This document shows, piece after piece, positions 2,291-16,151 of a stretch of 64,000 nt of DNA. Positions within the stretch are counted from its first letter, which is position 1. Every line of letters starts with the position of its first letter. The stretch is taken from positions 248,001 through 312,000 of the forward strand of contig NZ_CABPSF010000003.1 in assembly GCF_902459685.1 (NCBI RefSeq), read 5' to 3'. Below the pieces are notes generated by a model. It was given only the letters and a program-made list of their open reading frames with translations, had not been told where the DNA came from and searched no databases. A program made the translations under genes and the position numbers. Source of the stretch: Pandoraea iniqua (lineage in GTDB: Bacteria > Pseudomonadota > Gammaproteobacteria > Burkholderiales > Burkholderiaceae).

Positions 2291-3784
<1,494 letters not shown>

Positions 3785-3899
3785 GTGGCGGGCACGGGAC
3801 TTGCATGAACCTGCGGGGTGACGTGTCCGGCGTACGTGATGTATGCGATGTACGCGGTCCGGATGCCGTTACCCCGATTCTTCGTCTGCGAGCCTGCCC

Positions 3900-4403
3900 A
3901 TGGCTGTACCGAATTCCGTTGCAGGACCCATTGCGCTGTGCGTGAACGGCGCGCCGCACGTCGTGGCCGACGCCACCCCGGATACGCCACTGCTCTACGT
4001 ATTGCGCAACGATCTTGCCCTCAACGGCCCCAAGTACGGCTGCGGGCTGGGTCAGTGCGGCGCCTGCACGGTACTGGTCGATGGCCAGCCGACGCGCTCG
4101 TGCGTGGTGCCCGTCAGCGTGGCGCGTGAACGCGAAGTCACAACGCTCGAAGGCTTAGGCAGTGTCGACGACCTGCACCCCATCCAGCGCGCGTTCATCG
4201 ATGAGCAGGCTGCCCAATGCGGTTATTGCCTGAACGGCATGATCATGAGCACCAAGGCGCTGCTCGACCGTAATCCGATGCCCGACGACGCCGCGATCCA
4301 CGACGCGCTGCGCTTCAACCTGTGCCGCTGCGGCACGCACTACGAAATCGTCAAGGCCGTGCACCGTGCGGCGCAATATCTGCGACATGACCCGGTTCGA
4401 TGA
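3900..4403 (+). CDS. nicA: nicotinate hydroxylase 2Fe-2S subunit NicA
   Basis: A 167-residue small subunit of the xanthine-dehydrogenase family, carrying two 2Fe-2S clusters that pass electrons from the molybdenum site to the cytochromes of NicB. The plant-ferredoxin-type motif is seen at YGCGLGQCGACTVLVDG with a later Cys in PTRSC. The second cluster is formed by QCGYCLNG and NLCRCGTH. The start MAVPNS was chosen because it gives the usual N-terminal beta strand directly before ALCVNG. The ribosome binding site is weak. The gene overlaps the start of nicB, which indicates translational coupling. Confidence 0.87.
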   Translation: MAVPNSVAGPIALCVNGAPHVVADATPDTPLLYVLRNDLALNGPKYGCGLGQCGACTVLVDGQPTRSCVVPVSVAREREVTTLEGLGSVDDLHPIQRAFIDEQAAQCGYCLNGMIMSTKALLDRNPMPDDAAIHDALRFNLCRCGTHYEIVKAVHRAAQYLRHDPVR

Positions 4404-6792
4404 CGACGCGCGCCATCGCGCGCTTGACGGCAGTTCACGTCGTGCCGCGCTGAGCGAGGCTGACACCACATCGCCGCAGGATGACGGGCCGCACGCCACC
4501 TACGGCTGGCCCACGCGCGACGGCGATGCGGTCGCGCACCTCGATGTGGCGGCCCAAACCCGCACTGACGGCACACTCCGCACGTGGCGCTATCGCGCAG
4601 ACGTTGGCAGCGATGTCGCGCCCGGCGATGCAGCGCTTCCCGTGCTGCCTTCGCAAGATGCCGCTGCGCTACCGCCGCAGTTGTATCGGCTCGACGCCAG
4701 TGCGGTGCAGGTGAGCGACGCGGGGCACCGCATTCCGCCGCAAGCGCATACGTTCGCGCGCGAATCGTTCATGGATGAAGTCGCCGTCGAAGCCGATCAC
4801 GACCCGGTCGGCTACCGGCTATACCATCTCGACCCCGAACGCGACGCCGGCGCCCGCGAAGTGATTCGCATGGTGGCGCAACGCGCTGCGTGGGGATTGC
4901 CGGAACGGGCCGACGCCATCGGCGCGCCCACCGGCTGGCAACGGGGCCGGGGTTTCGCCTTCGACGGCGAGACATCGGCCGAAAGCGAAGGCGCTGCCCC
5001 GGACACATGGTCGGCGTGGGTCGTCGATCTCGACGTGAATCCGCAATCGGGTGAAATCGCCATTCGTCGCGTGGTCGCGGGTCAGGCGACCGGCGAGCCC
5101 GGCGCAGCGCCAGAAGTTGGCGGCCTGCCTGCGTGGCAGATCACCGACGCGATGCAGCGTGCGTTGGGGATGGCGTGGGATGCTGACGCGACGCACGATG
5201 AAACCGGTAGCGCGGGCGACGGACAGGCCGCTTTGGCGCTCGCACTTCGGCGTGCCTTAATCTCAACGCAGAACAGCGCAGACGCGCCCCACACCGTCTC
5301 AAGCATGGACGCCGAGCGTCTGGCACGCTCTGCGGCACCGGCGGCGGCGGCCATTGCCAACGCGTTGTTCGACGCTACCGGCGTTCGGTTGCGCCGTCCG
5401 CCCTTCGATCCGGCCAGCCTGCGCAGCGCGCTCCGCGACGCGAACGTGTCACCGGAAAATGCCCCCGCCAATCAGCGTCGCCCGGCACGCTGGCGCCGCT
5501 GGCTCGCGGGCGGGGGAATTGGCGGCGTAATGGGCGGATTGATCGGGTTGGCGTGCGCGATGCTGCCCGGTGCGCCGGCGCTCGCGCCAATCACGGCGGC
5601 TGACAACACGCTATGGTCCAGTGCGACGCTCGAGCGTGGCCGTCAGGTGGCATTGGCCGGTGACTGCGCCGTCTGTCACACGGCCTCGGGCGGTGCCGTC
5701 AATGCGGGTGGCCTTGCGCTGGAGACACCGTTCGGCACGGTCTATTCGACCAACCTCACGCCGGATGCCGAGACCGGTATCGGCCGGTGGTCGTACGCGG
5801 CGTTTGCCCGTGCCATGCGCGAGGGCATTTCGCGCGACGGCTCCCATCTGTATCCGGCCTTCCCGTACACCGCGTTCGCGAAGATGAGCGAGCCCGACAT
5901 GCTCGCGCTGTACGCCTATCTGATGTCGCAGCCCGCCGTCGCCAATACCCCGCCGAAGACTGCGCTGCCCTTCCCTCTCAACCAACGGCGTCTGGTGGCC
6001 GGCTGGAACTGGCTGTATCACGACACAACCGAATATCGCCCCGATCCCGCGCAATCGACGCTGTGGAATCGCGGCCGCTATCTCGTCGACGGCGCGGGCC
6101 ACTGCGGCGCCTGCCACACGCCGCGCAATATGCTGGGTGCCGAGCGCGAGAAGCTGTATTTGCGCGGCGGCGAAGCCGAGGGCTGGCGCGCGCCGCCACT
6201 CGTGGCATCCGCTGACGCACCGGTGCCGTGGACAGAAGCGGCCCTGTTCGACTACCTGCGAACCGGCTTCTCGCCCGAACACGGGGTTGCCGCAGGGCCA
6301 ATGGCACCGGTCGTGTCCGGCCTCGCGGCACTGCCCGAAACGGATGTCCGGGCGATTGCGCATTACATTGCTTCGCTCTCGCCGCAGACGAATGCTTCGC
6401 AGGTCGCCGACCTTGCCCGCCAACGCGCGAGCGGCGTCGACCTCGCCACAACGCTAGGTCTGGAGAACGGGCGGCGCACCTTCGAGGCGGCATGCGCCGT
6501 CTGCCATACGGAGTCGGGCGGCGTCGGACACTTTGGCGTGCGCCCGCTCATGGGACTCAACACGAGCGTGAGTCAGGCCAAGCCCGACAACCTCATGCAT
6601 GTTCTGATGAATGGCATCGACCAGCCCGCTACCGAGGCGCTCGGCTACATGCCGGGTTTTCGCGACGCCTTCGACGATCGCCAGATCGCCGAGCTCGCGT
6701 CGTATATCCGCGCACGCTATGCGCCTGACCAACCCGCGTGGCGCGATCTCGACGCTGCGGCGGCGCGCGCCCGCACCGCCCCGTCTCACTGA
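4387..6792 (+). CDS. nicB: NicB-like protein: partial molybdopterin domain fused to tri-haem cytochrome c
   Basis: In known NicB (about 1180 residues) a full molybdopterin domain is followed by three cytochrome c modules, and with NicA it hydroxylates nicotinate at C6. This copy has only 801 residues. The C-terminal half is normal: a membrane segment at about 374-400 and three haem sites, CAVCH (about 426), CGACH (about 572) and CAVCH (about 701). The N-terminal 370 residues match only the later part of a molybdopterin subunit (FARESFMDEVA near 125, AIANALFDATG near 320). The first cofactor-binding domain is missing. The GxGE catalytic glutamate motif, expected just before AIANALFDATG, reads ERLARSAAP. 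There is no frameshift room, because nicA overlaps the start. Electron transfer looks intact; catalysis by this chain alone does not. Confidence 0.75.
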   Translation: MTRFDDDARHRALDGSSRRAALSEADTTSPQDDGPHATYGWPTRDGDAVAHLDVAAQTRTDGTLRTWRYRADVGSDVAPGDAALPVLPSQDAAALPPQLYRLDASAVQVSDAGHRIPPQAHTFARESFMDEVAVEADHDPVGYRLYHLDPERDAGAREVIRMVAQRAAWGLPERADAIGAPTGWQRGRGFAFDGETSAESEGAAPDTWSAWVVDLDVNPQSGEIAIRRVVAGQATGEPGAAPEVGGLPAWQITDAMQRALGMAWDADATHDETGSAGDGQAALALALRRALISTQNSADAPHTVSSMDAERLARSAAPAAAAIANALFDATGVRLRRPPFDPASLRSALRDANVSPENAPANQRRPARWRRWLAGGGIGGVMGGLIGLACAMLPGAPALAPITAADNTLWSSATLERGRQVALAGDCAVCHTASGGAVNAGGLALETPFGTVYSTNLTPDAETGIGRWSYAAFARAMREGISRDGSHLYPAFPYTAFAKMSEPDMLALYAYLMSQPAVANTPPKTALPFPLNQRRLVAGWNWLYHDTTEYRPDPAQSTLWNRGRYLVDGAGHCGACHTPRNMLGAEREKLYLRGGEAEGWRAPPLVASADAPVPWTEAALFDYLRTGFSPEHGVAAGPMAPVVSGLAALPETDVRAIAHYIASLSPQTNASQVADLARQRASGVDLATTLGLENGRRTFEAACAVCHTESGGVGHFGVRPLMGLNTSVSQAKPDNLMHVLMNGIDQPATEALGYMPGFRDAFDDRQIAELASYIRARYAPDQPAWRDLDAAAARARTAPSH

Positions 6793-6836: not shown

Positions 6837-7844
6837 ATGCACAGCGTCGATCGCGAAGTTCTCGAAACTGCTTCACGCTGGCTATCGCAAGGGCGCGGCG
6901 TGCAGTTGTTCACCGTCGTCGCGACATGGGGCTCGTCACCGCGTCCACCGGGTGCCACGCTGGCGATTCGCGATGACGGCCGGCTCGTCGGCTCGGTGTC
7001 CGGCGGCTGTATTGAAGACGATCTGATCGATCGCTTGCAACGCAGCGGCCCGCCCGGGCCACTCCACGAGCTCCCCGAACTCATCGAGTACGGCGTCAGT
7101 GCCGACGAAGCGCATCGCTTCGGCCTGCCCTGCGGCGGCACGATGCGGCTGGTGCGTGAAACGTTGTCCAGCGCCAGCGCCCTGCCCGGTCTGATCGAAG
7201 CGATTTGCAACGGCCGCGCCGTGCACCGCACGCTCAACATGGCCACGGGACGCGTTACGCTGGCTCCGCTCGCCGAGCACGTCGACGGCGACACTTGTGT
7301 GTTCGACGGGGCGAGTTTGGTGACCACGCACGGCCCCACGTGGCGGCTGCTGCTGATCGGGGCCGGACAACTCACCCAATACGTCGCCAACATTGCGCTC
7401 ACCCTCGATTACGCCGTCACGGTCTGCGATCCGCGTGAGGAATATCGCGACGGTTGGCACATGCCGGGCGTCACGCTGGTGCGCACCATGCCGGACGACA
7501 CCGTCATCGGCATGCGTCCCGATGCCCGCATGGCCGTGGTTGCACTCACGCACGACCCCAAACTCGATGACCTCGCCCTGATGGAGGCGCTGATGTCGCC
7601 CGCGTTTTACGTCGGCGCGATTGGTTCACGCAGAAACAACGACAAACGCCGGGAGCGGTTGCAGCTCTTCGGCGTGACGCAAGCCGCGCTTGCGCGTCTG
7701 CGTGGCCCCGTGGGGCTGCATTTGGGCGGACGCACGCCGCCGGAGATCGCCGTATCGATTGCCGCGGAATTGACGGCGCGCCGGCATCGCTTGCCTGTGA
7801 CGTCGTTGATGGATGTGCAGGCCGGTAAGGCGCTCGCCGGCTAA
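6837..7844 (+). CDS. XdhC/CoxI family molybdenum-cofactor insertion protein
   Basis: A 335-residue protein of the XdhC/CoxI family, cytosolic chaperones that bind sulfurated molybdenum cofactor and load it into xanthine-dehydrogenase-type hydroxylases. The N-terminal XdhC domain shows ATWGSSPRPPGA and VGSVSGGCIEDD. The C-terminal Rossmann-like domain begins near residue 160 (LLLIGAGQL) and includes YVGAIGSRR. It starts 44 bases after nicB and closes the operon before a terminator. A dedicated chaperone implies that an active molybdenum hydroxylase is made, which makes the shortened nicB domain next door harder to explain. Confidence 0.85.
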   Translation: MHSVDREVLETASRWLSQGRGVQLFTVVATWGSSPRPPGATLAIRDDGRLVGSVSGGCIEDDLIDRLQRSGPPGPLHELPELIEYGVSADEAHRFGLPCGGTMRLVRETLSSASALPGLIEAICNGRAVHRTLNMATGRVTLAPLAEHVDGDTCVFDGASLVTTHGPTWRLLLIGAGQLTQYVANIALTLDYAVTVCDPREEYRDGWHMPGVTLVRTMPDDTVIGMRPDARMAVVALTHDPKLDDLALMEALMSPAFYVGAIGSRRNNDKRRERLQLFGVTQAALARLRGPVGLHLGGRTPPEIAVSIAAELTARRHRLPVTSLMDVQAGKALAG

Positions 7845-7946: not shown

Positions 7947-9263
7947 TCAACGATTGACCACGTGCTTCGGATACGACAGCGCAAGTGCGCAGCCAATCAC
8001 CATACAGACACCAAAGCCGTAGATGCCGGCTGACTGCGAATGGAACGTGTCGCGAAGCCAGCCAATGAAGTACGTGCTGAAGAAGCCGCCGAGATTCGCC
8101 AGCGAGCAGGCAAATGCAATGCCTGCCGCGGCCGCCGATCCCTTCAGAAACGTTGACGGCAACGCCCACACCACCGGCATCGCAGCGGCCGCGCCCAGAT
8201 TGATGAGCGAGAACAACACCACCGTCATTGCCGTGCCATGGTTGCCGCTCGCGAAGATGAACATGGCCACCGCCGACAGCAGAAACGGCAGCACGATGTG
8301 CCAGCGACGCTCGCGCAGCCGGTCCGAGCGCGCGCCCCACACCAGCACGCCGACTACGGCGAGTGCATTCGGAATGGCCATCAGCCAGCCGATCGTGTAG
8401 GTGTCGCGCACGCCCGTGTCTTTCAGGATCGTCGGCAGCCAGAAGCTCACGCCGTACAAACCGAGCAGCACGCAAAGGTCGACCAGCCCGAGGATCCAGA
8501 CCTTCAGATCGGTGAAGGCGGCGCCCAGATTGTGGCGCTTGTGAACCCCGGCGTCCTTGTCGAGGTTGGCCAGCAGCACGGTCTTCTCCTGCGGCGTGAG
8601 CCAGCGGGTCGATGCGATATCGTTCGGCAGATACATGAAGATCGCCACCCCGAGCACGACGGACGGAATGGCCTCGATGACAAACAGCCACTGCCAGCCG
8701 CCGAAACCATGGGCGCCGTCGAACATCTGCATGATCCAACCCGACAACGGACTGCCGATCATGCTGGAGAGCGGCAAGCCGACCATGAACAGCGCGATGA
8801 TGCGCGCCCGGCGTTCATCGGGGTACCAGCGCGTCAGATACAGCAGCACGCCGGGCAAGAAGCCCGCTTCGGCGACGCCAAGCAGGAAGCGCAGCACGTA
8901 GAACTGCATCGGGGTGGTGACAAACGCCGTCGCCCCCGAGATCAGGCCCCACGTGATCATGATGCGGGCAATCCACAGCTTGGCGCCCACCTTCTGAAGA
9001 ATCAGATTGCTGGGCACCTCGAAGAGGATATAGCCGGCGAAGAACAGGCCGGCCCCGAGCCCGTAGACGGTATCGCTGAATTGCAGCGCGTTGAGCATCT
9101 GCAATTTGGCCAGTCCGACATTGATCCGGTCGAGATAGGCGGCGAAATAACACAGGCAGAAGAACGTGATCAGGCGCACGGTGACCTTGCGGTACAGCGC
9201 GTCAGCGTCGGTATTCGACGCGCTCGCCTGCGTGACCAGGTCTGGCGTAGAGAGAGAGGACAT
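7947..9263 (-). CDS. nicT: MFS transporter, NicT-type
   Basis: A 438-residue major facilitator of the anion:cation symporter (phthalate/tartrate permease) group with about twelve hydrophobic segments. It shows the early motif YLDRINVGLA and the loop RWYPDERRARIIALF, both typical of the group. NicT of Pseudomonas has the same length and is thought to import nicotinate or 6-hydroxynicotinate. A quinolinate or other pyridine-carboxylate substrate would be equally consistent with the neighbours. The start at MSSLSTPDL follows a GGGA box. A 65-residue upstream extension crosses the intergenic region and is rejected. It is divergent from the nadC-like gene. Confidence 0.78.
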   Translation of the reverse strand: MSSLSTPDLVTQASASNTDADALYRKVTVRLITFFCLCYFAAYLDRINVGLAKLQMLNALQFSDTVYGLGAGLFFAGYILFEVPSNLILQKVGAKLWIARIMITWGLISGATAFVTTPMQFYVLRFLLGVAEAGFLPGVLLYLTRWYPDERRARIIALFMVGLPLSSMIGSPLSGWIMQMFDGAHGFGGWQWLFVIEAIPSVVLGVAIFMYLPNDIASTRWLTPQEKTVLLANLDKDAGVHKRHNLGAAFTDLKVWILGLVDLCVLLGLYGVSFWLPTILKDTGVRDTYTIGWLMAIPNALAVVGVLVWGARSDRLRERRWHIVLPFLLSAVAMFIFASGNHGTAMTVVLFSLINLGAAAAMPVVWALPSTFLKGSAAAAGIAFACSLANLGGFFSTYFIGWLRDTFHSQSAGIYGFGVCMVIGCALALSYPKHVVNR

Positions 9264-9572
9264 GGCGATTCCCGGGTAGCGTAAGAGTCTGGGTGGATCG
9301 TCCGCCCGGCGAGAATTCGGGCGTGTGCGCTCGGCACTGACGGATGTATAGCATGAATAAAAAGCGTATGCGCTAGAAAAATAAGTCGCAAAACATGCCC
9401 GCCGAATGCACTGAAACTCTCCGCACAAAGCCCTGTAAAGGCGGAGATAGAACGCCACCTCATAGCCCTAGGGTTTTCCTCTAGCGACGAATGGAATTGT
9501 TTTCCTTGAAGCGCAAATATTAAGTGTGTACGCTACGAATCAACCCTTCCGAGTCCTGACCGAGGAGCTGCC
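9264..9572. promoter_or_regulatory. nicT / nadC-like divergent control region
   Basis: A 309-base AT-richer gap without a convincing gene. GTATGCGCTA at 9366-9375 lies about 100 bases before nicT and resembles the nic operator core GTGTACGCTA. The exact core is at 9526-9535, in front of the nadC-like gene. Both outward units therefore appear to belong to the nic regulon. Confidence 0.55.
9506..9542 (+). promoter_or_regulatory. predicted nadC-like promoter with nic operator
   Basis: TTGAAG (9506-9511), 17 bases, then TACGCT (9529-9534). The -10 box sits in the same 19-bp element, GTGTGTACGCTACGAATCA (9524-9542), as in front of nicC. The surrounding bases differ, so the identity is not part of a longer duplication, which argues for selection on a regulatory site. 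Confidence 0.65.
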
Positions 9573-10406
9573 ATGTACGACCGTTTTGCTGTTGACCGTC
9601 TGATCGACCTTTGGCTTACCGAAGACATCGGCTATTGCGACCTCACGGCGCAGACGATGATTGACGACTCTGCCACGGGTGCCTTCGTGATGAACGCCCG
9701 TGAGCCGGTAATCGTTGCCGGCATCGATATCGCGGCGCAAATTTTCCTGCGCTACGACCCGACCCTCAAGGTCGACGTGAAGGTGCGCGACGGGCAGCAC
9801 GCCCCGAAGGGCGCCATCCTGCTGCACGTTTCCGGCAATGCCCGCAGCATCCTCACGGCGGAGCGCACCGCCCTGAACATCGTGCAGCGTATGAGCGGCA
9901 TCGCCAACGAGACGGCCCGCTATGTGGCCGCCATCGAAGGCACGCGTGCCCGCCTGCTCGACAGCCGCAAGACGACGCCCGGTCTGCGCATGCTGGAAAA
10001 GCATGCGGTGAGCTGCGGCGGCGGGCTGAACCATCGTCTGGGGCTGGATAACGGCGTGATGATCAAGGACAACCACATCGCCGTCTCCGGCAGCATTACG
10101 GCCGCCGTGGCGCGCGCACGAAAGCTCGTGCCGATGCTGACCAAAGTGGAAGTCGAATGCGATCGTCTCGATCAGGTCGCCGAAGCACTGGAGACCGACG
10201 TGGACGTCATCATGCTCGACAATATGTCGGTCGCAGACATGACCAAAGCCGTCGCGATGATTGGCGGCAAGTGCAAGGTCGAAGCTTCGGGCGGCATTCG
10301 TCTCGAGACGATTCGTCCGATCGCTGAAACCGGCGTCGATTACATTTCGACGAGCAAGATCATGCAATCGGCCCCGGCCGTCGATATCGGTCTGGACGAA
10401 GCCTGA
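9573..10406 (+). CDS. nadC: quinolinate phosphoribosyltransferase (NadC) paralogue in the nic regulon
   Basis: A 277-residue type II phosphoribosyltransferase. NadC condenses quinolinate with PRPP to give nicotinate mononucleotide, CO2 and pyrophosphate. The family residues are visible: TAERTALN (Arg), DSRKTTPGLR (Arg and Lys), NHRLGL (Arg), IKDNH (Lys), VEVECD (Glu) and IMLDN (Asp). The KDNH and NHR motifs separate it from ModD-type relatives. NAD synthesis genes nadA and nadB are not nearby. Instead it shares an operator with nicC and is followed 17 bases later by a PhnN/AMP-phosphorylase fusion. I infer a catabolic role, feeding quinolinate into the nicotinate pathway. A housekeeping role in NAD synthesis cannot be excluded. 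Confidence 0.8.
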   Translation: MYDRFAVDRLIDLWLTEDIGYCDLTAQTMIDDSATGAFVMNAREPVIVAGIDIAAQIFLRYDPTLKVDVKVRDGQHAPKGAILLHVSGNARSILTAERTALNIVQRMSGIANETARYVAAIEGTRARLLDSRKTTPGLRMLEKHAVSCGGGLNHRLGLDNGVMIKDNHIAVSGSITAAVARARKLVPMLTKVEVECDRLDQVAEALETDVDVIMLDNMSVADMTKAVAMIGGKCKVEASGGIRLETIRPIAETGVDYISTSKIMQSAPAVDIGLDEA

Positions 10407-10423
10407 TCCAAGGGATATCGACG

Positions 10424-12211
10424 ATGACGCTCCCCGGGATATTTTTCTTCGTGGTCGGCCCCAGCGGGGCCGGCAAGGACACGCTGATCGACGGTGCACG
10501 CGCGTGCCTCGCGAACAGCGACCGCTACGTCTTCGCCACGCGCACCATTACACGCGCCGGCGATGCCCCGGGGGAAGCGCACATCGGCGTCACCGAGGCC
10601 GAATTCGCCGCGCGTGACGCTGCGGGTGCGTTTCTGGTGACCTGGCAGGCCCACGGGCTGCATTACGGGCTCGACGCCGGCTTGCGTGACGTGCTTGCGC
10701 AAGGCCGCCATGTCGTCGCCAATGGCTCGCGGGCCATCCTGCCCAAACTCATCGGCCGCGTGCAGCGGTTGATCATTGTGGAAGTCAGTGCGCCGGTGGA
10801 AGTCCTCGCCGCGCGCATCGCAGGACGCGGGCGCGAAACGCCCGAACAAATCGCTGCACGGCTGGCTCGCACAGTCACGGCCTATCCCGCCGGCGTGCCG
10901 CTCGTGCGTGTGTCGAACGACAGCACTAGCGATGTCGGCATCGCGCGCTTTACCGCCGCGTTGCAGGCCTGCGCACAGCTGCCGAAAAGCCGCGAATTGG
11001 CGGACGCCAAGCGCGCGGGGGTATCGCTCGATGAAGCCTCGTGGGGCCAACTGCTCGACGATCTGATGTATGACCGCTACGCCCCCGATGAGGGCGAGGC
11101 GCTGCTGCAATTGCTGATCGAGCACATCGACGACGACGAGATCGTTGCGCTCACCCGGGCGCGCACACGCTTGATGCCGCGCATCGACTGGGGGCGGCCG
11201 ATGGTCGTCGACAAGCATTCGATGGGCGGCGTGCCCGGCAGTCGCATCACGCTGATCGTCGTACCGCTCGTTGTAGCGTACGGACTGTGCATGCCGAAAA
11301 CGTCTTCACGTGCCATCACTTCTGCCGCCGGGACTGCCGACGCGATGGAAGCGGCGGCGCGGGTCGATCTCGATGCCATGGAGGTGCGTGCCGCCGTCGA
11401 GCAGGCTGGCGGCTGCATCGTATGGAATGGCCGGCTCAATCATTCCCGCGTCGACGACGTGACGAACGCGATGGTGCGGCCGCTCCGGCTCGATACGCGT
11501 CGCTGGTCGGTGGCGTCGATTCTGTCGAAAAAGTTTTGCGCAGGCGCGACGCACGTCGTCGTGGATCTGCCTTGGGGGCCGCAAGCTAAGATGGCCGACG
11601 AGGCGCAGGCGCGAATGTTGGGCGCGCTGTTCGAGCGCGTGGGTGCCGCGCTGGGGATGACGGTGCAGGCGTTCGCCACTGATGGGCGCGCACCGATAGG
11701 CCGCGGCATCGGTCCCGCACTGGAACTGCGCGACGTGCTGCAAGTGCTGAACAGCGAGGCCGAAGCGCCCAAGGATCTGCGTGCCAAGGCGTTGACGTTT
11801 GCCGCCCGCATTCTGTCGTGGCATCCGGCACTCGGCGGCGATCTTGTGAAGGCGCACGCCATCGCAGAACAACTGCTGGCCAGCGGCGATGCGCGACGTG
11901 CCTTCGAGCGAATTGTCGACGCGCAGGGGCGAAAAGACTTCGCTATGCCTGCCCCGTCATACGTCGACATCGTTGCTCAAACAGACGGCGTAGTGACCAC
12001 CATCGATGGCTGGGAAGTCTCCGGCATTGCCCGCGATGCCGGCGCACCGAGCGATATGGGGGCAGGCGTCGACCTGCTTTGCACCGTCGGGCAATCGGTG
12101 CGCGCCGGTGACGCCTTGCTGCGCGTGCATGGTAACGATCCGCAACGGCTGGCCGCAGCGGCCGCCCGTGCGCAGGCCGTGAGTGGCATCGTGCTTCAAG
12201 CAGCCGGTTGA
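10424..12211 (+). CDS. fusion: PhnN ribose-1,5-bisphosphokinase plus AMP-phosphorylase/thymidine-phosphorylase-like enzyme
   Basis: A 595-residue two-enzyme fusion. Residues 1 to about 186 are PhnN-like, with the P-loop GPSGAGKD at 12-19; PhnN phosphorylates ribose 1,5-bisphosphate to PRPP. From about 190 the chain matches the nucleoside-phosphorylase family closest to AMP phosphorylase: KHSMGGVPGSR near 264, and SSRAITSAAGTADAME near 293, which is the family signature. AMP phosphorylases split a nucleoside 5'-monophosphate with phosphate into base and ribose 1,5-bisphosphate, exactly the substrate of PhnN. The fusion would therefore turn a mononucleotide, phosphate and ATP into free base and PRPP. 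After NadC the obvious mononucleotide is nicotinate mononucleotide. An AAGGGA ribosome binding site precedes the ATG. The substrate is inferred, not shown. Confidence 0.82.
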   Translation: MTLPGIFFFVVGPSGAGKDTLIDGARACLANSDRYVFATRTITRAGDAPGEAHIGVTEAEFAARDAAGAFLVTWQAHGLHYGLDAGLRDVLAQGRHVVANGSRAILPKLIGRVQRLIIVEVSAPVEVLAARIAGRGRETPEQIAARLARTVTAYPAGVPLVRVSNDSTSDVGIARFTAALQACAQLPKSRELADAKRAGVSLDEASWGQLLDDLMYDRYAPDEGEALLQLLIEHIDDDEIVALTRARTRLMPRIDWGRPMVVDKHSMGGVPGSRITLIVVPLVVAYGLCMPKTSSRAITSAAGTADAMEAAARVDLDAMEVRAAVEQAGGCIVWNGRLNHSRVDDVTNAMVRPLRLDTRRWSVASILSKKFCAGATHVVVDLPWGPQAKMADEAQARMLGALFERVGAALGMTVQAFATDGRAPIGRGIGPALELRDVLQVLNSEAEAPKDLRAKALTFAARILSWHPALGGDLVKAHAIAEQLLASGDARRAFERIVDAQGRKDFAMPAPSYVDIVAQTDGVVTTIDGWEVSGIARDAGAPSDMGAGVDLLCTVGQSVRAGDALLRVHGNDPQRLAAAAARAQAVSGIVLQAAG

Positions 12212-12214
12212 CGG

Positions 12215-13405
12215 CTATTTTCTATCGGCAAACCAAACCAATATCGGCGGCTTGTAGAACGTGCGGTCCAGCAGCGTCTTCGCATCGACCCAGCCGTCGC
12301 CATTATCTTTCTGCCAATCGTCGCCCCAACTGTTGACGACACGAATGGCGTCGGTGCAGCGGTTTTTCGCGTCACAGGTGGATTTCAGGCCGACGACGAC
12401 CACCTCGTGTGAATTCTTGCACCCCTCGGCGGTCGGGGTCTTGTCGAGACAAATATTGCCTAAAGCGAGCGGACGTTGATCGGCGAGTGCGGTACGGATC
12501 ACCTCGATCGCCTGCTTGTAGTTGCCGCGACTGGCCGCATTCTTGGTTGGCTTCGATCCCGGCGTGTCGGATTCCGCCGGCTGCGGATAAAACCTGACAC
12601 TGACTTTGTGCATGCTCTCGAACATCACGCTCCTGCTGAGTCGTACACACTCGGCAGGCACGGCGAGCCGGTAAAGGAACTGACCGTAGTCCGGCTCGGC
12701 CAGCGCAGATACCGATCGGGCCTTCTTCTTGCTGATCGCCGGAAACGTCTCGGTGAGAAAGGACACGTCTGTCGCGTGGGACGACTCGAACGTCTTGATG
12801 CAGTCTGTGCAATTCACGTCGACGGACTTGGCCTCATCGTGCAACTGCCGGAAGATCGCCTTGGTCCGGTTCCACATATCCAGCTCGCGCTGCGTCGCAA
12901 GAGCGTCCGTATAGCCGGGCGTCATGATCTTTTTCGAGGCGCAGGCGAGCGACGGTGCGGCGCCGGTGTCGTAAGCCACCACCTGAAGGATCATCGCAGA
13001 ATTGCCCGCTTCGCTGACGTTGAGCGACCCGCTGTCCGCCGGCGCCTTGCGATTGTCAGATGCGGCGGCAGCATCCCTCGTCTTCTGCCGGCCCCAAATG
13101 CTCGCCAGTGCCAGTGGCGAGAACACTTCGGCGTCGGTCACCGCCTTACAGTCGGTCTTCAGCGCCCGGCAATTCTCTGCCGTTAGCATCGTCGACGCCA
13201 CGTGGGCAAAGCAGATGCCCAGCGCGCCCTGCCCCGTCACCGGCGGCAGGTTGGTCACTTCCTGCACGGCGCCCTTTGTCGACCGGTCAGTTGGGACGGG
13301 AGAAAAGCCCCAGACGCCGCCGATGTTATCGCCAGCGGTTTGGGCGATCGCCGGCGTGGCTGCCGCAGAAAAAACCAGAATAAGTGTGAGGAATGTGAGC
13401 TTCAT
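12215..13405 (-). CDS. secreted papain-like (C1-type) cysteine peptidase
   Basis: A 396-residue protein with a clear signal peptide (residues 1-21, ending PAIAQ). Papain-family landmarks appear in order: the oxyanion glutamine and catalytic cysteine in GQGALGICFAH (Gln59, Cys65), a histidine in NSHEVVVVG about 60 residues from the end, and asparagine in VVNSWGDDW. The usual CGSCW is changed to LGICF. Several other cysteines suggest disulfides and a periplasmic or extracellular place of action. It ends three bases from the convergent fusion gene and has no obvious partner. The substrate is unknown. It may be a divergent or regulatory member of the clan rather than a general protease. Confidence 0.65.
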   Translation of the reverse strand: MKLTFLTLILVFSAAATPAIAQTAGDNIGGVWGFSPVPTDRSTKGAVQEVTNLPPVTGQGALGICFAHVASTMLTAENCRALKTDCKAVTDAEVFSPLALASIWGRQKTRDAAAASDNRKAPADSGSLNVSEAGNSAMILQVVAYDTGAAPSLACASKKIMTPGYTDALATQRELDMWNRTKAIFRQLHDEAKSVDVNCTDCIKTFESSHATDVSFLTETFPAISKKKARSVSALAEPDYGQFLYRLAVPAECVRLSRSVMFESMHKVSVRFYPQPAESDTPGSKPTKNAASRGNYKQAIEVIRTALADQRPLALGNICLDKTPTAEGCKNSHEVVVVGLKSTCDAKNRCTDAIRVVNSWGDDWQKDNGDGWVDAKTLLDRTFYKPPILVWFADRK

Positions 13406-13483
13406 AGCGCCTGCGGGGAACCCGATTTTTCGCGCATTGTAAGCAACATCGGCGCGCCACGATATCCGTCATTCAGAGGACAG

Positions 13484-14422
13484 CTAGCGAGGTAGCGCGG
13501 TCTCGTTGCAGCAAAATTCGACAAACGCCTTCACCGCCTCATCCGGCGCCCGCTCCGGATGAGGCCGCATGACATAGCGCCATGAGCCCGCCAGCCTGAG
13601 ATCCGGCACAAGAATCACCAACCGGCGCGCCGCGACTTCCTCGTCGATCAGCGGCGTGCGGCCCAGCGCAATGCCCACGCCCGACACGGCGGCCGAGACG
13701 ACCGCACTCATGCCATGCAGGATGAGCGGGTCGCGCGAAGCGCCACTCGCCACCCCCATGCGATCCAGCCAAGCGTCCCACGACGTTTCCGGGCTGGCCG
13801 TATGGTCCTCGGCAATCAGTCGATGCCGCGTGAACAACGCCGGATCGTCGTGCCGGGATCTGGCAACGAGAGACGGGCTGCAAACCGGCACAACCGTCTC
13901 TCCCACCAACGGCACGTCGTCCGGCTGGGCAACGCGCGAACCCCGGTCATTGATATGCAGAAATGCGAGATCGATATCGCGTGTTTTCCAACTGGGGTTT
14001 TGATTCGTATGGAGGTGGACTTCGATGTCGATGTCGGGCCGTTGCTCCATGAAGCGCCCGATACGTGGCACCAGCCAAAGCGCGCTGAATGACGCATTGG
14101 CAGAAAGGGAAAGTCGCCGCCTCTGGTAGCCGCTTGCCGCTAACCGGGTCTCCCGGCACGCAATCTCCAGCAATCCCAGCGAGCGTTGCACCGACCTGAG
14201 GAACGCCGTACCGAGTTCGGTCGGTTCCGCCTTTTGATCCCGCGTGCCTCGCCGTAACAGCGTGCCGCCGATGTCGAGCTCCAGCGCCTTGATCTGTTGG
14301 CTCACGGCGCCCTTGGTGACGTGTAGTTCATCGGCGGCCCGGCTGACGCTGCCAAGCCGCGCGACCGCTTCGAAGGCTCTGAGTGCCGGCAGCGGCGGCA
14401 AATGTTTGGGCAAGGTCTTCAT
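13484..14422 (-). CDS. LysR-type transcriptional regulator, GcvA-like
   Basis: A 312-residue LysR regulator. The N-terminal winged helix reads LPALRAFEAVARLGSVSRAA and HVTKGAVSQQIKALE, followed by a substrate-binding domain from about residue 95. The LPPLPALRAFEAVAR opening resembles the GcvA/AmpR branch. The ATG at MKTLPKH was taken; a TTG ten codons upstream has no better signal. It is divergent from the periplasmic argininosuccinate-lyase homologue at 14556, the usual arrangement for a LysR protein and its target. The ligand cannot be read from sequence. Confidence 0.85.
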   Translation of the reverse strand: MKTLPKHLPPLPALRAFEAVARLGSVSRAADELHVTKGAVSQQIKALELDIGGTLLRRGTRDQKAEPTELGTAFLRSVQRSLGLLEIACRETRLAASGYQRRRLSLSANASFSALWLVPRIGRFMEQRPDIDIEVHLHTNQNPSWKTRDIDLAFLHINDRGSRVAQPDDVPLVGETVVPVCSPSLVARSRHDDPALFTRHRLIAEDHTASPETSWDAWLDRMGVASGASRDPLILHGMSAVVSAAVSGVGIALGRTPLIDEEVAARRLVILVPDLRLAGSWRYVMRPHPERAPDEAVKAFVEFCCNETALPR

Positions 14423-14555
14423 GGGCGCTTGGGTATAGCAAAACTCAACCAACGGTAGAGAAAGTATCGCTATTTCAAGCGATCGTTATGCGAAAGAATA
14501 CCGCAGGCCCGCACGCAATTGCTGTGCTGGCGCACTGATCGGAGACAACGCCCCC

Positions 14556-16151
14556 ATGGTCAGTTCACCCGTACTTAACTCAAAAAGAAAATCGATGAAC
14601 CGTACACCTCTCGCATTGCGTCTCGTCACCGCAGCCGTGCTCTGCCTTTCATGGGGCGCACAAGCCCAAACGCCTGATGCCAGCCGCATCGGCAGAACGT
14701 CGGTGCCCAAGGCGCCGGGTTTTCAAGCGCTCTACGACTTCGACGCGGCCGCGAAGGCGCTGCCGGACGCCACGTTTCCGTATGAAGTCCGAGTACACCG
14801 CGCGCACGTCGTCATGCTCGCGGAAAAAGGGATCATCAGCCAGGATGATGCGCGCAAGATTCTCACCGGGCTCGACACCATCGATGCACGTGCAGCAAAG
14901 GACCCGGTGCTGCGCACCTATCTGCCCTACGAGGCAGCGCTCGTGAAAGAGATCGGCTCAGTGGCAGGCCGCATGCACACGGGACGCAGCCGCAACGACC
15001 TCGCGAACACCGTGAATCGCATGTTCTATCGCGACCAGATCAACCGGACGGTCGCAGCACTGATAGCTTTACGCACCGCCGTCATTGATAAAGCCGCAGA
15101 CAACATGGATACGGTGATGGTGGTCTATACCCACCGAAAGGAAGCGCAACCGATTACCCTCGGCCACTACTTGATGGCCCTGTCGGAAGCCTTGAAAAAG
15201 GACATCGACCGCTACGAGGAACTCTATGTCCGCATGAACCAGAGCCCGCTTGGCGCAGCGGCCTCAGCAGGTACCGGCTGGCCGCTGGATCGTGAGCGCA
15301 CCGCCAGTCTTCTCGGCTTCGACAGTCTGGTCGTCGATACGATCGAAGGCACCGCCGGTTGGGATCACATCACCGAATTCGCCGCCGACAACGCCATCTA
15401 CCTGAGCGACCTCGGACGCCTCGGTTCTGAAATCCAGTTGTGGACGACGGACGAGTATCGACTCGCAGAGCTCGACTCCGCCTACGCGGGCATCAGCAGC
15501 ATCATGCCGCAGAAGAAAAACCCGGATTCGATCGAGCGCACCCGGGCCATCGTCGCGAACAGCGTCGGCGCGTTGACGTCGATTCTGGTGTCTCTCGACG
15601 GCATCGAATATCAACACAGCGTGGCGCGCGTGGCGTTGGAGCCCCGCTCGATCGACGGCATGATCGCCGCCACGCAGGCAATGACGGGTGTCGTGCAATC
15701 GCTGCACGTGAACAAGGCGCAGATGTTGCGCGACGCGGCCAAGAACTATTCGACGATGACGGATTTGGCCGACGCGATCGTGCGCGACTCGGGCATCGAC
15801 TTCCGCGACGCACACGAAATCGTGGCGAAAGTGGTGGATTCGGCCATTCAGGCGAATCTGAGCGCCGACCAGATTACCGTCGACATGATCCGGCACGCCG
15901 CCGAGCAGCAACTCGGCCACACGGTTCGCATCTCTGAAGCGTCGGTGCGCGACGCGCTGGACCCGGTGCGGAACGTGGCGCGCCGTAACGGCATCGGTGG
16001 CCCCGCCCCGGCGTCAGTCGAGCGCATGATTGCGCAAGCCCGCAAGGAGCTCGATCAGGAGCAGGCCCACCTAACGCAACGCACAGCGGCACTTGCGTCG
16101 GCCGGCAAACGACTCGATGTCGCTGTCGCAGGCGTAACCGGCACCCACTAA
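14556..16151 (+). CDS. exported argininosuccinate-lyase/fumarase superfamily protein
   Basis: A 531-residue member of the argininosuccinate lyase/fumarase superfamily. HTGRSRNDLANT corresponds to the HTARSRND segment of argininosuccinate lyase, and the signature SSIMPQKKNPDS is intact near residue 320. Unusually, the protein begins with an n-region SKRKSMNR, a hydrophobic core LVTAAVLCLSW and a cleavage site GAQAQT, so it should be exported to the periplasm. The ATG at 14556 has GGAG eleven bases upstream; a second ATG at 14595 would still keep the signal peptide. It is divergent from a LysR regulator. The substrate is probably an amino-acid-like fumarate or acrylate adduct. No other arginine-pathway gene is near. 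Confidence 0.72.
   Translation: MVSSPVLNSKRKSMNRTPLALRLVTAAVLCLSWGAQAQTPDASRIGRTSVPKAPGFQALYDFDAAAKALPDATFPYEVRVHRAHVVMLAEKGIISQDDARKILTGLDTIDARAAKDPVLRTYLPYEAALVKEIGSVAGRMHTGRSRNDLANTVNRMFYRDQINRTVAALIALRTAVIDKAADNMDTVMVVYTHRKEAQPITLGHYLMALSEALKKDIDRYEELYVRMNQSPLGAAASAGTGWPLDRERTASLLGFDSLVVDTIEGTAGWDHITEFAADNAIYLSDLGRLGSEIQLWTTDEYRLAELDSAYAGISSIMPQKKNPDSIERTRAIVANSVGALTSILVSLDGIEYQHSVARVALEPRSIDGMIAATQAMTGVVQSLHVNKAQMLRDAAKNYSTMTDLADAIVRDSGIDFRDAHEIVAKVVDSAIQANLSADQITVDMIRHAAEQQLGHTVRISEASVRDALDPVRNVARRNGIGGPAPASVERMIAQARKELDQEQAHLTQRTAALASAGKRLDVAVAGVTGTH

Follow-up and report, generated by a model that had tools for sequence, protein, structure and literature searches.

A putative PRPP-recycling route from quinolinate to nicotinate, encoded by a NadC paralogue and a PhnN-phosphorylase fusion beside the nic genes of Pandoraea iniqua

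In Pandoraea iniqua, a cluster of nicotinate catabolism (nic) genes has at its end a second gene for quinolinate phosphoribosyltransferase, nadC2, followed by a single gene that joins a PhnN domain to a phosphorylase of the adenosine monophosphate (AMP) phosphorylase type. Both genes lie in a 64,000-nucleotide stretch of assembly GCF_902459685.1 (contig NZ_CABPSF010000003.1, positions 248,001 to 312,000 of the forward strand), hereafter the window, whose own numbering is used below. We consider it likely that the pair forms a quinolinate-catabolic module that delivers nicotinate to the nicotinate-degrading pathway, with 5-phosphoribosyl 1-pyrophosphate (PRPP) as a recycled activating group. 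Such a PRPP-dependent conversion of quinolinate to nicotinate had been put forward in the original prediction, made from the window sequence, and it is supported here by the conservation of the pair, by the presence of a nicotinate-degrading route in 65 of the 67 genomes that carry the fusion and by a frequent Bug27-type neighbour.

In the proposed cycle, NadC2, in which the active site is kept, would convert quinolinate and PRPP into nicotinate mononucleotide (NaMN), CO2 and pyrophosphate by the chemistry of its family. The phosphorylase half of the fusion would then split NaMN with phosphate into nicotinate and ribose 1,5-bisphosphate, a step for which the reaction type is suggested by the archaeal nucleoside-monophosphate (NMP) phosphorylase and the base by genomic context and clade-specific residues. 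Finally the PhnN half, again by family chemistry, would turn ribose 1,5-bisphosphate and ATP (adenosine triphosphate) into PRPP and ADP (the diphosphate), for a net reaction of quinolinate + ATP + phosphate to nicotinate + CO2 + ADP + pyrophosphate. Since PRPP would be remade at each turn it would act catalytically, and the ribosyl group would leave no trace. The regeneration of PRPP that had originally been predicted thus stands, with the correction that one ATP and one phosphate would be spent per turn and pyrophosphate released. Nicotinate would next enter the oxidative nic route in Pandoraea and its relatives or, in Alcaligenaceae, Bosea and others, the reductive 6-hydroxynicotinate/enamidase route. 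Their fusion makes it a fair guess that ribose 1,5-bisphosphate is channelled between the two halves. We also think it probable that this traceless phosphoribosylation is a widespread strategy, in which PRPP serves as a recycled activating group for the decarboxylation of pyridine-2-carboxylates, NadC has been recruited into the catabolism of carbon and nitrogen, the cycle is completed by a bifunctional NaMN phosphorylase-ribose 1,5-bisphosphokinase and two unrelated nicotinate pathways are fed.

The gene pair in the window

The two genes comprise the following features.

9573-10406, + strand: NadC2, putative catabolic-type quinolinate phosphoribosyltransferase, 277 amino acids (TIGR00078 match)
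10424-10969, + strand: PhnN domain (ribose 1,5-bisphosphate phosphokinase), N-terminal half of the fusion (TIGR02322; border approximate)
10970-12211, + strand: predicted nucleoside-monophosphate phosphorylase (AMP-phosphorylase-type) domain of the fusion (TIGR02645/TIGR03327/PRK04350, 4GA4 fold; border approximate)

NadC2 passed the equivalog model TIGR00078 with 317.7 bits (curated cut-off 198.4), and its identification as ModD was rejected at 114.7 bits against TIGR01334 (cut-off 178.85). Another nadC was found on a different contig of the same genome, directly behind nadA and 38% identical to NadC2; the window gene is therefore a paralogue, and a role as the ordinary housekeeping NadC was ruled out for this genome. 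The original prediction had reckoned with the case that this nadC might be the only one in the genome, which it is not, nor does the locus present the sole nadC with nadA/nadB that marks an operon for the biosynthesis of nicotinamide adenine dinucleotide (NAD). The fusion is a single open reading frame (ORF; ORFs in our scripts were called with our own simple caller) on the + strand at 10424-12211, encoding 595 amino acids, and it begins 17 bases after the end of nadC2, exactly the succession of paralogue and fusion that had been predicted. Residues 5-180 belong to PhnN, with 173.4 bits against TIGR02322 (cut-off 156, passed) and the P-loop GPSGAGKDT. In the profile scan, residues 184-591 matched the type-2 thymidine/AMP phosphorylase families, with 390 bits for TIGR02645, under its cut-off, and 340.2 bits for the AMP phosphorylase equivalog TIGR03327, which has a cut-off of 535; PRK04350 was passed across the whole chain (518.9 bits, cut-off 434). 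These scores suggest that the phosphorylase half is related to AMP phosphorylase, not a standard member. Both domains of the predicted fusion are thus present by profile, and what had to be corrected is that PhnN forms the N-terminal half, so that the order of domains in the chain is the opposite of the order of reactions.

The AlphaFold model of the fusion had a mean predicted local distance difference test score of 91.9. Its residues 187-595 matched best the archaeal AMP phosphorylase 4GA4 (Z 50.2, 1.9 Å over 406 residues, 36% identity), ahead of the best pyrimidine nucleoside phosphorylase (Z 42.8); the structure list used for this fold search barely probed the PhnN residues 1-186. An artefact of assembly or reading frame was ruled out, as the fusion is found at full length both in five genera within the family sample and in genomes beyond the family. 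The nearest named loci are from Pandoraea, with fusions 84-94% identical to that of the window. Elsewhere in the window's genome there is another PhnN-like stretch, which stands alone and is 42% identical.

The pair as a conserved unit

Genes, gene order, partners and conservation as a unit can be read directly from the genomes. The fusion occurred in six of 32 genus genomes, in 50 of 398 family genomes (E < 1e-120) and in 17 genomes outside the family, the latter consisting of 16 named loci and genome G705, where both halves and NadC2 were confirmed. Among these 17, the contig of L056 ends within the PhnN half, so that the fusion itself is not visible, and the fusion of L045 is split across two frames. 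NadC2 adjoins the fusion in 66 of the 67 genomes (49/50 in the family sample, 17/17 outside the family); it does so in all six genus genomes and in 43 of the 44 family loci outside the genus, all of which were fetched, and the sole miss, L181, starts close to the edge of its contig. Two loci of genus g3 were scanned, and in both of them nadC2 and the fusion are separated by a MarR gene on the opposite strand; MarR proteins were also found near NadC2 in Variovorax L229, L153 and L141. Pairwise identities of NadC2 and of the fusion were correlated at r = 0.945 over 58 loci, a set that leaves out L181 and L156, with its truncated NadC2, and that also served for the element count given below. The window's NadC2 is 60-98% identical to the NadCs beside other fusions and only 38% identical to the housekeeping NadC of its own genome. 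Around the unfused relatives of the phosphorylase (41-44% identical), no NadC2 was found within about 20 kb in any of ten loci (L185-L194).

Fusions of two lengths were observed. Seven of the 34 measured (L044, L046, L048, L049 and L182-L184) are long, at about 680 amino acids, and their roughly 85 extra residues are probably the N-terminal domain of AMP phosphorylase, absent from the short form. Seven more genomes of the order, with 42-44% matches to the phosphorylase part alone, stand outside the fusion and NadC2 counts. The unfused relatives at L185-L194 are the type-2 'thymidine phosphorylases' of the family.

Two further features recur around the pair. An FRG-domain protein (PF08867) was seen near it in 12 of 69 loci searched, for example at L141:6523-7323, and one is likewise annotated at Variovorax L229:10653-11462. 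In a Sheuella MAG (metagenome-assembled genome), a 188-amino-acid PhnN ORF (L051:7980-8546) lies behind an ABC (ATP-binding cassette) transporter, whose genes are the same as those that precede the NadC2-fusion pair in L038.

Association with nicotinate degradation

The original prediction had proposed a genome search for co-occurrence of NadC-fusion pairs with nic genes, and when it was run NicX, at E < 1e-150, was present in 48 of the 50 family fusion genomes as compared with 81 of the 348 fusion-less ones (Fisher p = 2e-24, kinship ignored). Within the genus, the fusion occurred in six of 12 genomes with NicX and in none of 20 without it (p = 0.001, kinship ignored). The NicX cut-off was set after the list of matches was seen, and genomes counted as lacking NicX under it include 18 of the genus (E 1e-61 to 1e-67), G181 (5e-89) and G368 (2e-62).

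Both family fusion genomes without NicX, G225 and G195, carry an enamidase 77-78% identical to our query P0003 from Jezberella, which owes its identification to a match of 377.6 bits with the Eubacterium barkeri enamidase 2VUN. Enamidase opens the ring in the reductive route of nicotinate breakdown, which is unrelated to the NicX route. The search covered 14 of the 50 family fusion genomes, and in the other 12 no enamidase was found beyond three stray matches at E of about 1e-4. Outside the family, enamidase of at least 59% identity was present in 14 of the 17 genomes, a count from which the 41% identical amidohydrolase of G790 was left out, and NicX (70%) in one. At seven of the 16 named loci, 1.8-3.1 kb separate the beginning of the enamidase gene from that of the fusion match. 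The query had been chosen as a neighbour of the fusion in L047, and seven of the 14 matches outside the family were neighbours known beforehand, one of them the query itself; the most independent cases are therefore G705, G784, G787, G792, G795, G797, G798, G225 and G195. In the seven of these outside the family, enamidase lies elsewhere in the genome or farther off than in the neighbour loci; in G705 its distance from the beginning of the NadC2-fusion pair is about 3.4 kb. The module thus accompanies two pathways that are not homologous and that share nicotinate as their entry compound.

At the Jezberella locus L047, a 538-amino-acid protein, a PRK04334-family protein and an AA_synth protein (11901-13517, 13521-14980) are encoded between the enamidase and a Liv-type transporter. 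We rejected the name 6-hydroxynicotinate reductase for the 538-amino-acid protein (L047:11901-13517), which had no naming Pfam, NCBIfam or PDB match and for which the name would be a positional guess; perhaps these genes correspond to the 6-hydroxynicotinate reductase and to the pair of unknown but conserved proteins of which PMC3511419 speaks. G788 is the sole betaproteobacterial carrier without NicX or enamidase, and inspection of its locus (L042) by eye showed, about 4-6 kb behind the fusion, what seem to be genes for a Rieske oxygenase and a reductase.

Association with quinolinate

A binding protein of the Bug27 type is encoded next to NadC2 at the Jezberella locus (L047:5955-6956), where the best match was 2QPQ at 467 bits (next 197). 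Two others, of L043 (440 bits, next 185) and L165 (364, next 201), were likewise of the Bug27 type by best PDB match, that is all three tested. Directly behind the fusion, a Bug27-type gene 46-51% identical to the Jezberella protein was found in 29 of 29 loci of genus g3, and one adjoins the fusion in six of 16 loci outside the family. Relatives at 64-78% occur in L040, L042, L043, L045, L050 and Variovorax L229, and in the last of these the Bug27-type gene overlaps the fusion ORF by four bases. According to Sorci et al. 2024 (PMC11452294), Bug27 of Bordetella pertussis binds quinolinate with a dissociation constant of 136 nM; these authors also noted that bug27 of Variovorax and Jezberella has nadC and phnN as neighbours, and took this as a matter of NAD metabolism.

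Transporters of other kinds adjoin the pair elsewhere. An NMT1-type ABC system lies near it in L044, L150, L155 and L158 (80-82% to L114:4548-5612) and in L230 (75%), and its binding protein may be an importer of quinolinate or nicotinate; a TAXI-TRAP system is found near the pair in Bosea, and a Pacificitalea plasmid carries a TRAP permease, nadC and the fusion consecutively. Judging from the neighbourhoods, uptake seems to be entrusted to whatever transporter is at hand: major facilitator superfamily (MFS), NMT1-type ABC, TAXI-TRAP or Bug27-type. We infer both the catabolic direction of the module and its transport.

Active-site residues

Eight positions of NadC2 (R98, R132, K133, H154, R155, K165, E195 and D216) were invariant in 60 of 60 NadC2 sequences; we take them to be substrate-binding, PRPP-binding and catalytic residues, on the roles known for Mycobacterium tuberculosis NadC. 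The housekeeping NadCs in the comparison (nine rows, eight of them distinct, as L002 = L115) share about 38-42% identity with the NadC2 clade. In the phosphorylase half, G269, SRAITS (S295-S300), T304, S365, K369 and K389 were present in 61 of 61 fusions and D357 in 59; these G, SRAITS, T, D, S and K positions are presumably those that bind phosphate, ribose and 5'-phosphate in AMP.

A second set of positions is specific to the fusions: R247, N335 and H340 (61/61), N348 and W361 (60/61), S273 (59/61), and the basic residues R/K337 (60/61) and R/K360 (56/61). At these positions 22 unfused relatives have mostly or always other residues, with A/S/G/T at 337, L at 340 and Q/R at 361. The differences on the base side suggest a base other than those of AMP, CMP and UMP (the cytidine and uridine monophosphates), and with basic residues near the presumed base contacts an acidic base, for example nicotinate, would fit. 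This evidence is suggestive at most, since some fixed differences are to be expected between any two clades. R360 and W361 are both absent from L048, which comes from G794, a genome without a nicotinate route.

A shared element upstream of nadC2 and nicC

A stretch of 19 bases, GTGTGTACGCTACGAATCA, is repeated without change ahead of nadC2 and nicC, as had been predicted of the promoter elements of the two.

9524-9542, + strand: putative operator before nadC2, 30 bases ahead of the start codon; the 19 bases equal the element before nicC
2529-2547, + strand: the same putative operator upstream of nicC (19-base identity)
2336-2359, - strand: related inverted element upstream of the divergent nicE, 83% complementary to 2522-2545

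A looser form of the element (17 positions, at most two mismatches) occurs in the window at these two sites only, with 0.25 expected by chance. In three other Pandoraea loci, L035, L036 and L037, both nadC2 and nicC are preceded by the element or by its core GTGTGTACGCT; the copy before nicC is unchanged in L035 and L037 and reduced to the core in L036. The core TGTACGCTA lies before nadC2 in L035, L036, L037, L141 and L142, in the last also before nicC, and farther upstream in L143, L147 and L148. Both genes are preceded by the element in four Pandoraea loci and in L142. We rejected it as a universal marker of nadC2, given its presence in 8 of 58 loci. An operator sequence that would identify BpsR/NicR as the reader of the element was not found in the accessible part of PMC6837509. 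A third copy (TTAATGTGTACGTTATAAATT) is at L114:5784, left of the window, upstream of the NMT1-type ABC binding protein.

Evidence against the proposal and alternative explanations

Several observations weigh against the proposed route. The Fisher p values overstate the independence of the fusion genomes, because these are related, and neither NicX nor enamidase was found in two carriers of the fusion, G788 (a 2.0 Mb MAG) and G794 (an alphaproteobacterial MAG). In the family sample 81 of the 129 genomes with NicX have no fusion, and of 14 among 399 order genomes with an enamidase of at least 74% identity, G705 alone was found to have one; many nicotinate degraders lack the pair, and the link is therefore one-way, from the module to a nicotinate route and not the reverse. 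NadC2 was the only NadC found in nine of 22 other genomes. Two of these, G195 and G794, have nadA, and there NadC2 probably also serves NAD synthesis; a sole NadC together with nadA argues at the same time that NadC2 accepts quinolinate. In the other seven nadA was not found, several of them being MAGs and possibly incomplete, so that NadC2 would have no de novo route to serve there. The clade-specific residues are placed at the base by analogy with the contacts of Escherichia coli thymidine phosphorylase rather than from a structure with bound ligand. The 300 bases before nadC2 contain the core motif in 8 loci of the 58 and lack it in the other 50. At the identity levels given above, no Bug27-type gene was found in the loci of genera g1, g10, g13 and g20 or in ten of the 16 outside the family. 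The preference of Bug27 for quinolinate over nicotinate is about 20-fold by thermal shift and only about 3-fold by fluorescence as compared with earlier values, and loss of bug69 left growth of B. bronchiseptica on quinolinate unimpaired (the former reported, the latter cited, in PMC11452294).

An unlikely alternative is that the pair serves NAD salvage, NadC2 making NaMN from scavenged quinolinate while the fusion merely supplies PRPP from AMP or another nucleotide. It would extend the published reading of the nadC-phnN-bug27 cluster (PMC11452294), and in the seven NadC2-only genomes without a detected nadA quinolinate could indeed be the NAD precursor. However, it leaves the link with nicotinate breakdown in 65 of 67 fusion genomes unexplained. 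The window's genome has two NadC matches, and so have ten of 12 further family genomes in the test (G379 shows more than two and G195 a single one), so that NadC2 is not needed for NAD in most of them, and the base-side residues of the fusion are unlike those of the unfused relatives. AMP biosynthesis consumes PRPP, and there would be no gain in remaking PRPP from AMP because AMP is itself made from it.

The same PRPP cycle might instead act on another imported 2-carboxypyridine, for example isocinchomeronate (the 2,5-dicarboxylate). Decarboxylation of this compound at C2 would likewise yield nicotinate, the 3-carboxylate, and the transporters beside the pair differ by taxon. We nevertheless regard this as highly improbable: all presumed quinolinate-binding residues of NadC are kept in 60 of 60 NadC2 sequences, and the NadC2 of G195, seemingly the only NadC of a genome with nadA, asks for activity on quinolinate. 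Moreover, Bug27 binds quinolinate, and 2,5-pyridinedicarboxylate is not among the ligands named for it in the available text of PMC11452294.

That the phosphorylase half uses ordinary nucleotides (AMP, CMP, UMP), NadC2 being linked to general nucleotide salvage as in archaea, would suit the nearest solved fold, an archaeal AMP phosphorylase, and the retention of the presumed AMP- and phosphate-binding residues, but hardly deserves credence when NadC2 lies beside the fusion in 66 of 67 genomes and beside unfused relatives in none of ten loci, and when six positions (247, 273, 335, 340, 348 and 361) hardly vary among 61 fusions and hold other residues in 22 unfused enzymes.

Relation to known systems

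A known type of quinolinate breakdown starts with ring hydroxylation. The route proposed here would share its substrate and differ in that decarboxylation follows N-ribosylation. NadC2 resembles the NadC of de novo NAD synthesis in family, catalytic residues and presumed reaction; however, it forms a separate clade and its product would presumably be phosphorolysed, not sent to NAD. The fusion has the fold and the presumed phosphorolysis of NMPs to ribose 1,5-bisphosphate in common with the archaeal AMP phosphorylase pathway of Thermococcus kodakarensis, as described in the accessible part of PMC9700705. In contrast to that pathway, the fusion carries PhnN, so the bisphosphate would return to PRPP and not proceed to ribulose 1,5-bisphosphate and Rubisco; in addition, its base-side residues are changed as compared with archaeal AMP phosphorylase, and the short form seems to be without the N-terminal domain. 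Its N-terminal half belongs to the same family (TIGR02322) as E. coli PhnN, a ribose 1,5-bisphosphokinase (PMC9700705, same part), although here it is half of a bifunctional chain and outside a phosphonate operon.

The Bug27/nadC/phnN cluster of Sorci et al. 2024 is the same locus as our Jezberella montanilacus L047, and Variovorax L229 is similar. The accessible account (PMC11452294) makes no mention of the phosphorylase half or of the adjacent enamidase genes, and considers NAD metabolism rather than catabolism. The routes that the module would feed are the aerobic nic pathway of the Pseudomonas putida type and the reductive 6-hydroxynicotinate/enamidase pathway of E. barkeri and Azorhizobium (PMC9304392, PMC3511419); both begin at nicotinate, and the available parts of these papers do not describe an entry from quinolinate. 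Among the matches listed from the open-access literature, none dealt with PRPP-dependent catabolism of quinolinate to nicotinate, with this fusion or with an enzyme of its kind that phosphorolyses NaMN, apart from what PMC11452294 remarks on nadC and phnN. The enzyme families and, in part, the clustering of nadC with phnN were thus known already, while the pathway, the assignment as NaMN phosphorylase and the PRPP cycle appeared in none.

If the proposal is true, bacteria would have a genetically defined route for the breakdown of quinolinate in which PRPP is a recycled cofactor, a logic for which we know of no other catabolic pathway. It would add an enzyme activity (NaMN phosphorolysis), give PhnN a role outside phosphonate metabolism and provide a reason for Bug27-type binding proteins beside nadC and phnN. 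Quinolinate, an end-product of tryptophan metabolism, is neuroactive, and gut-brain modules reportedly count nadC as 'quinolinate degradation'; if surveys do so, they mix NAD synthesis with real catabolism, and NadC2 together with the fusion would be a specific marker.

The nic cluster and other genes of the window

The neighbourhood of the pair in the window contains the following genes.

1-619, - strand: nicX, 2,5-dihydroxypyridine dioxygenase, the part within the window (7CN3, 409 bits; whole gene L114:9585-10619)
646-1563, - strand: nicD-like alpha/beta hydrolase (PF00561, 98.5 bits; named from position)
1538-2290, - strand: nicE-like protein, Asp/Glu racemase-type isomerase (PF17645, 73.5 bits; named from position and family)
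2615-3784, + strand: nicC, 6-hydroxynicotinate 3-monooxygenase (5EOW, 562 bits; start codon taken from the sequence)
3843-4403, + strand: nicA-like 2Fe-2S subunit (PF01799, PF00111)
4366-6792, + strand: cytochrome c subunit of nicotinate hydroxylase, nicB-like part (PF00034, PF13442)
6837-7844, + strand: XdhC-type maturation factor for a molybdenum hydroxylase (PF13478/PF02625)
7947-9263, - strand: MFS transporter, transcribed divergently from nadC2 and a candidate permease for quinolinate or nicotinate (PF07690, 166.5 bits; ATG at 9263)

The matches of NicC to 5EOW and of NicX to 7CN3 bear out the prediction that a nic pathway is encoded next door. The gene for the molybdenum subunit of nicotinate hydroxylase lies outside the window, on its upstream side, and the enzyme is seemingly split, with molybdenum domains at L114:6465-8753 and cytochrome c domains at 4366-6792 of the window, about 6 kb apart; the cytochrome c gene itself shows weak molybdenum-domain matches only. 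On the other side of the pair, 12215-13405 encodes an apparently exported protein of 396 amino acids with no Pfam match and a C-terminal NSWGDDW reminiscent of papain-like proteases. Farther on, at 14556-16151, there is a protein of the argininosuccinate lyase family with an apparent signal peptide, which is odd for a cytosolic enzyme.

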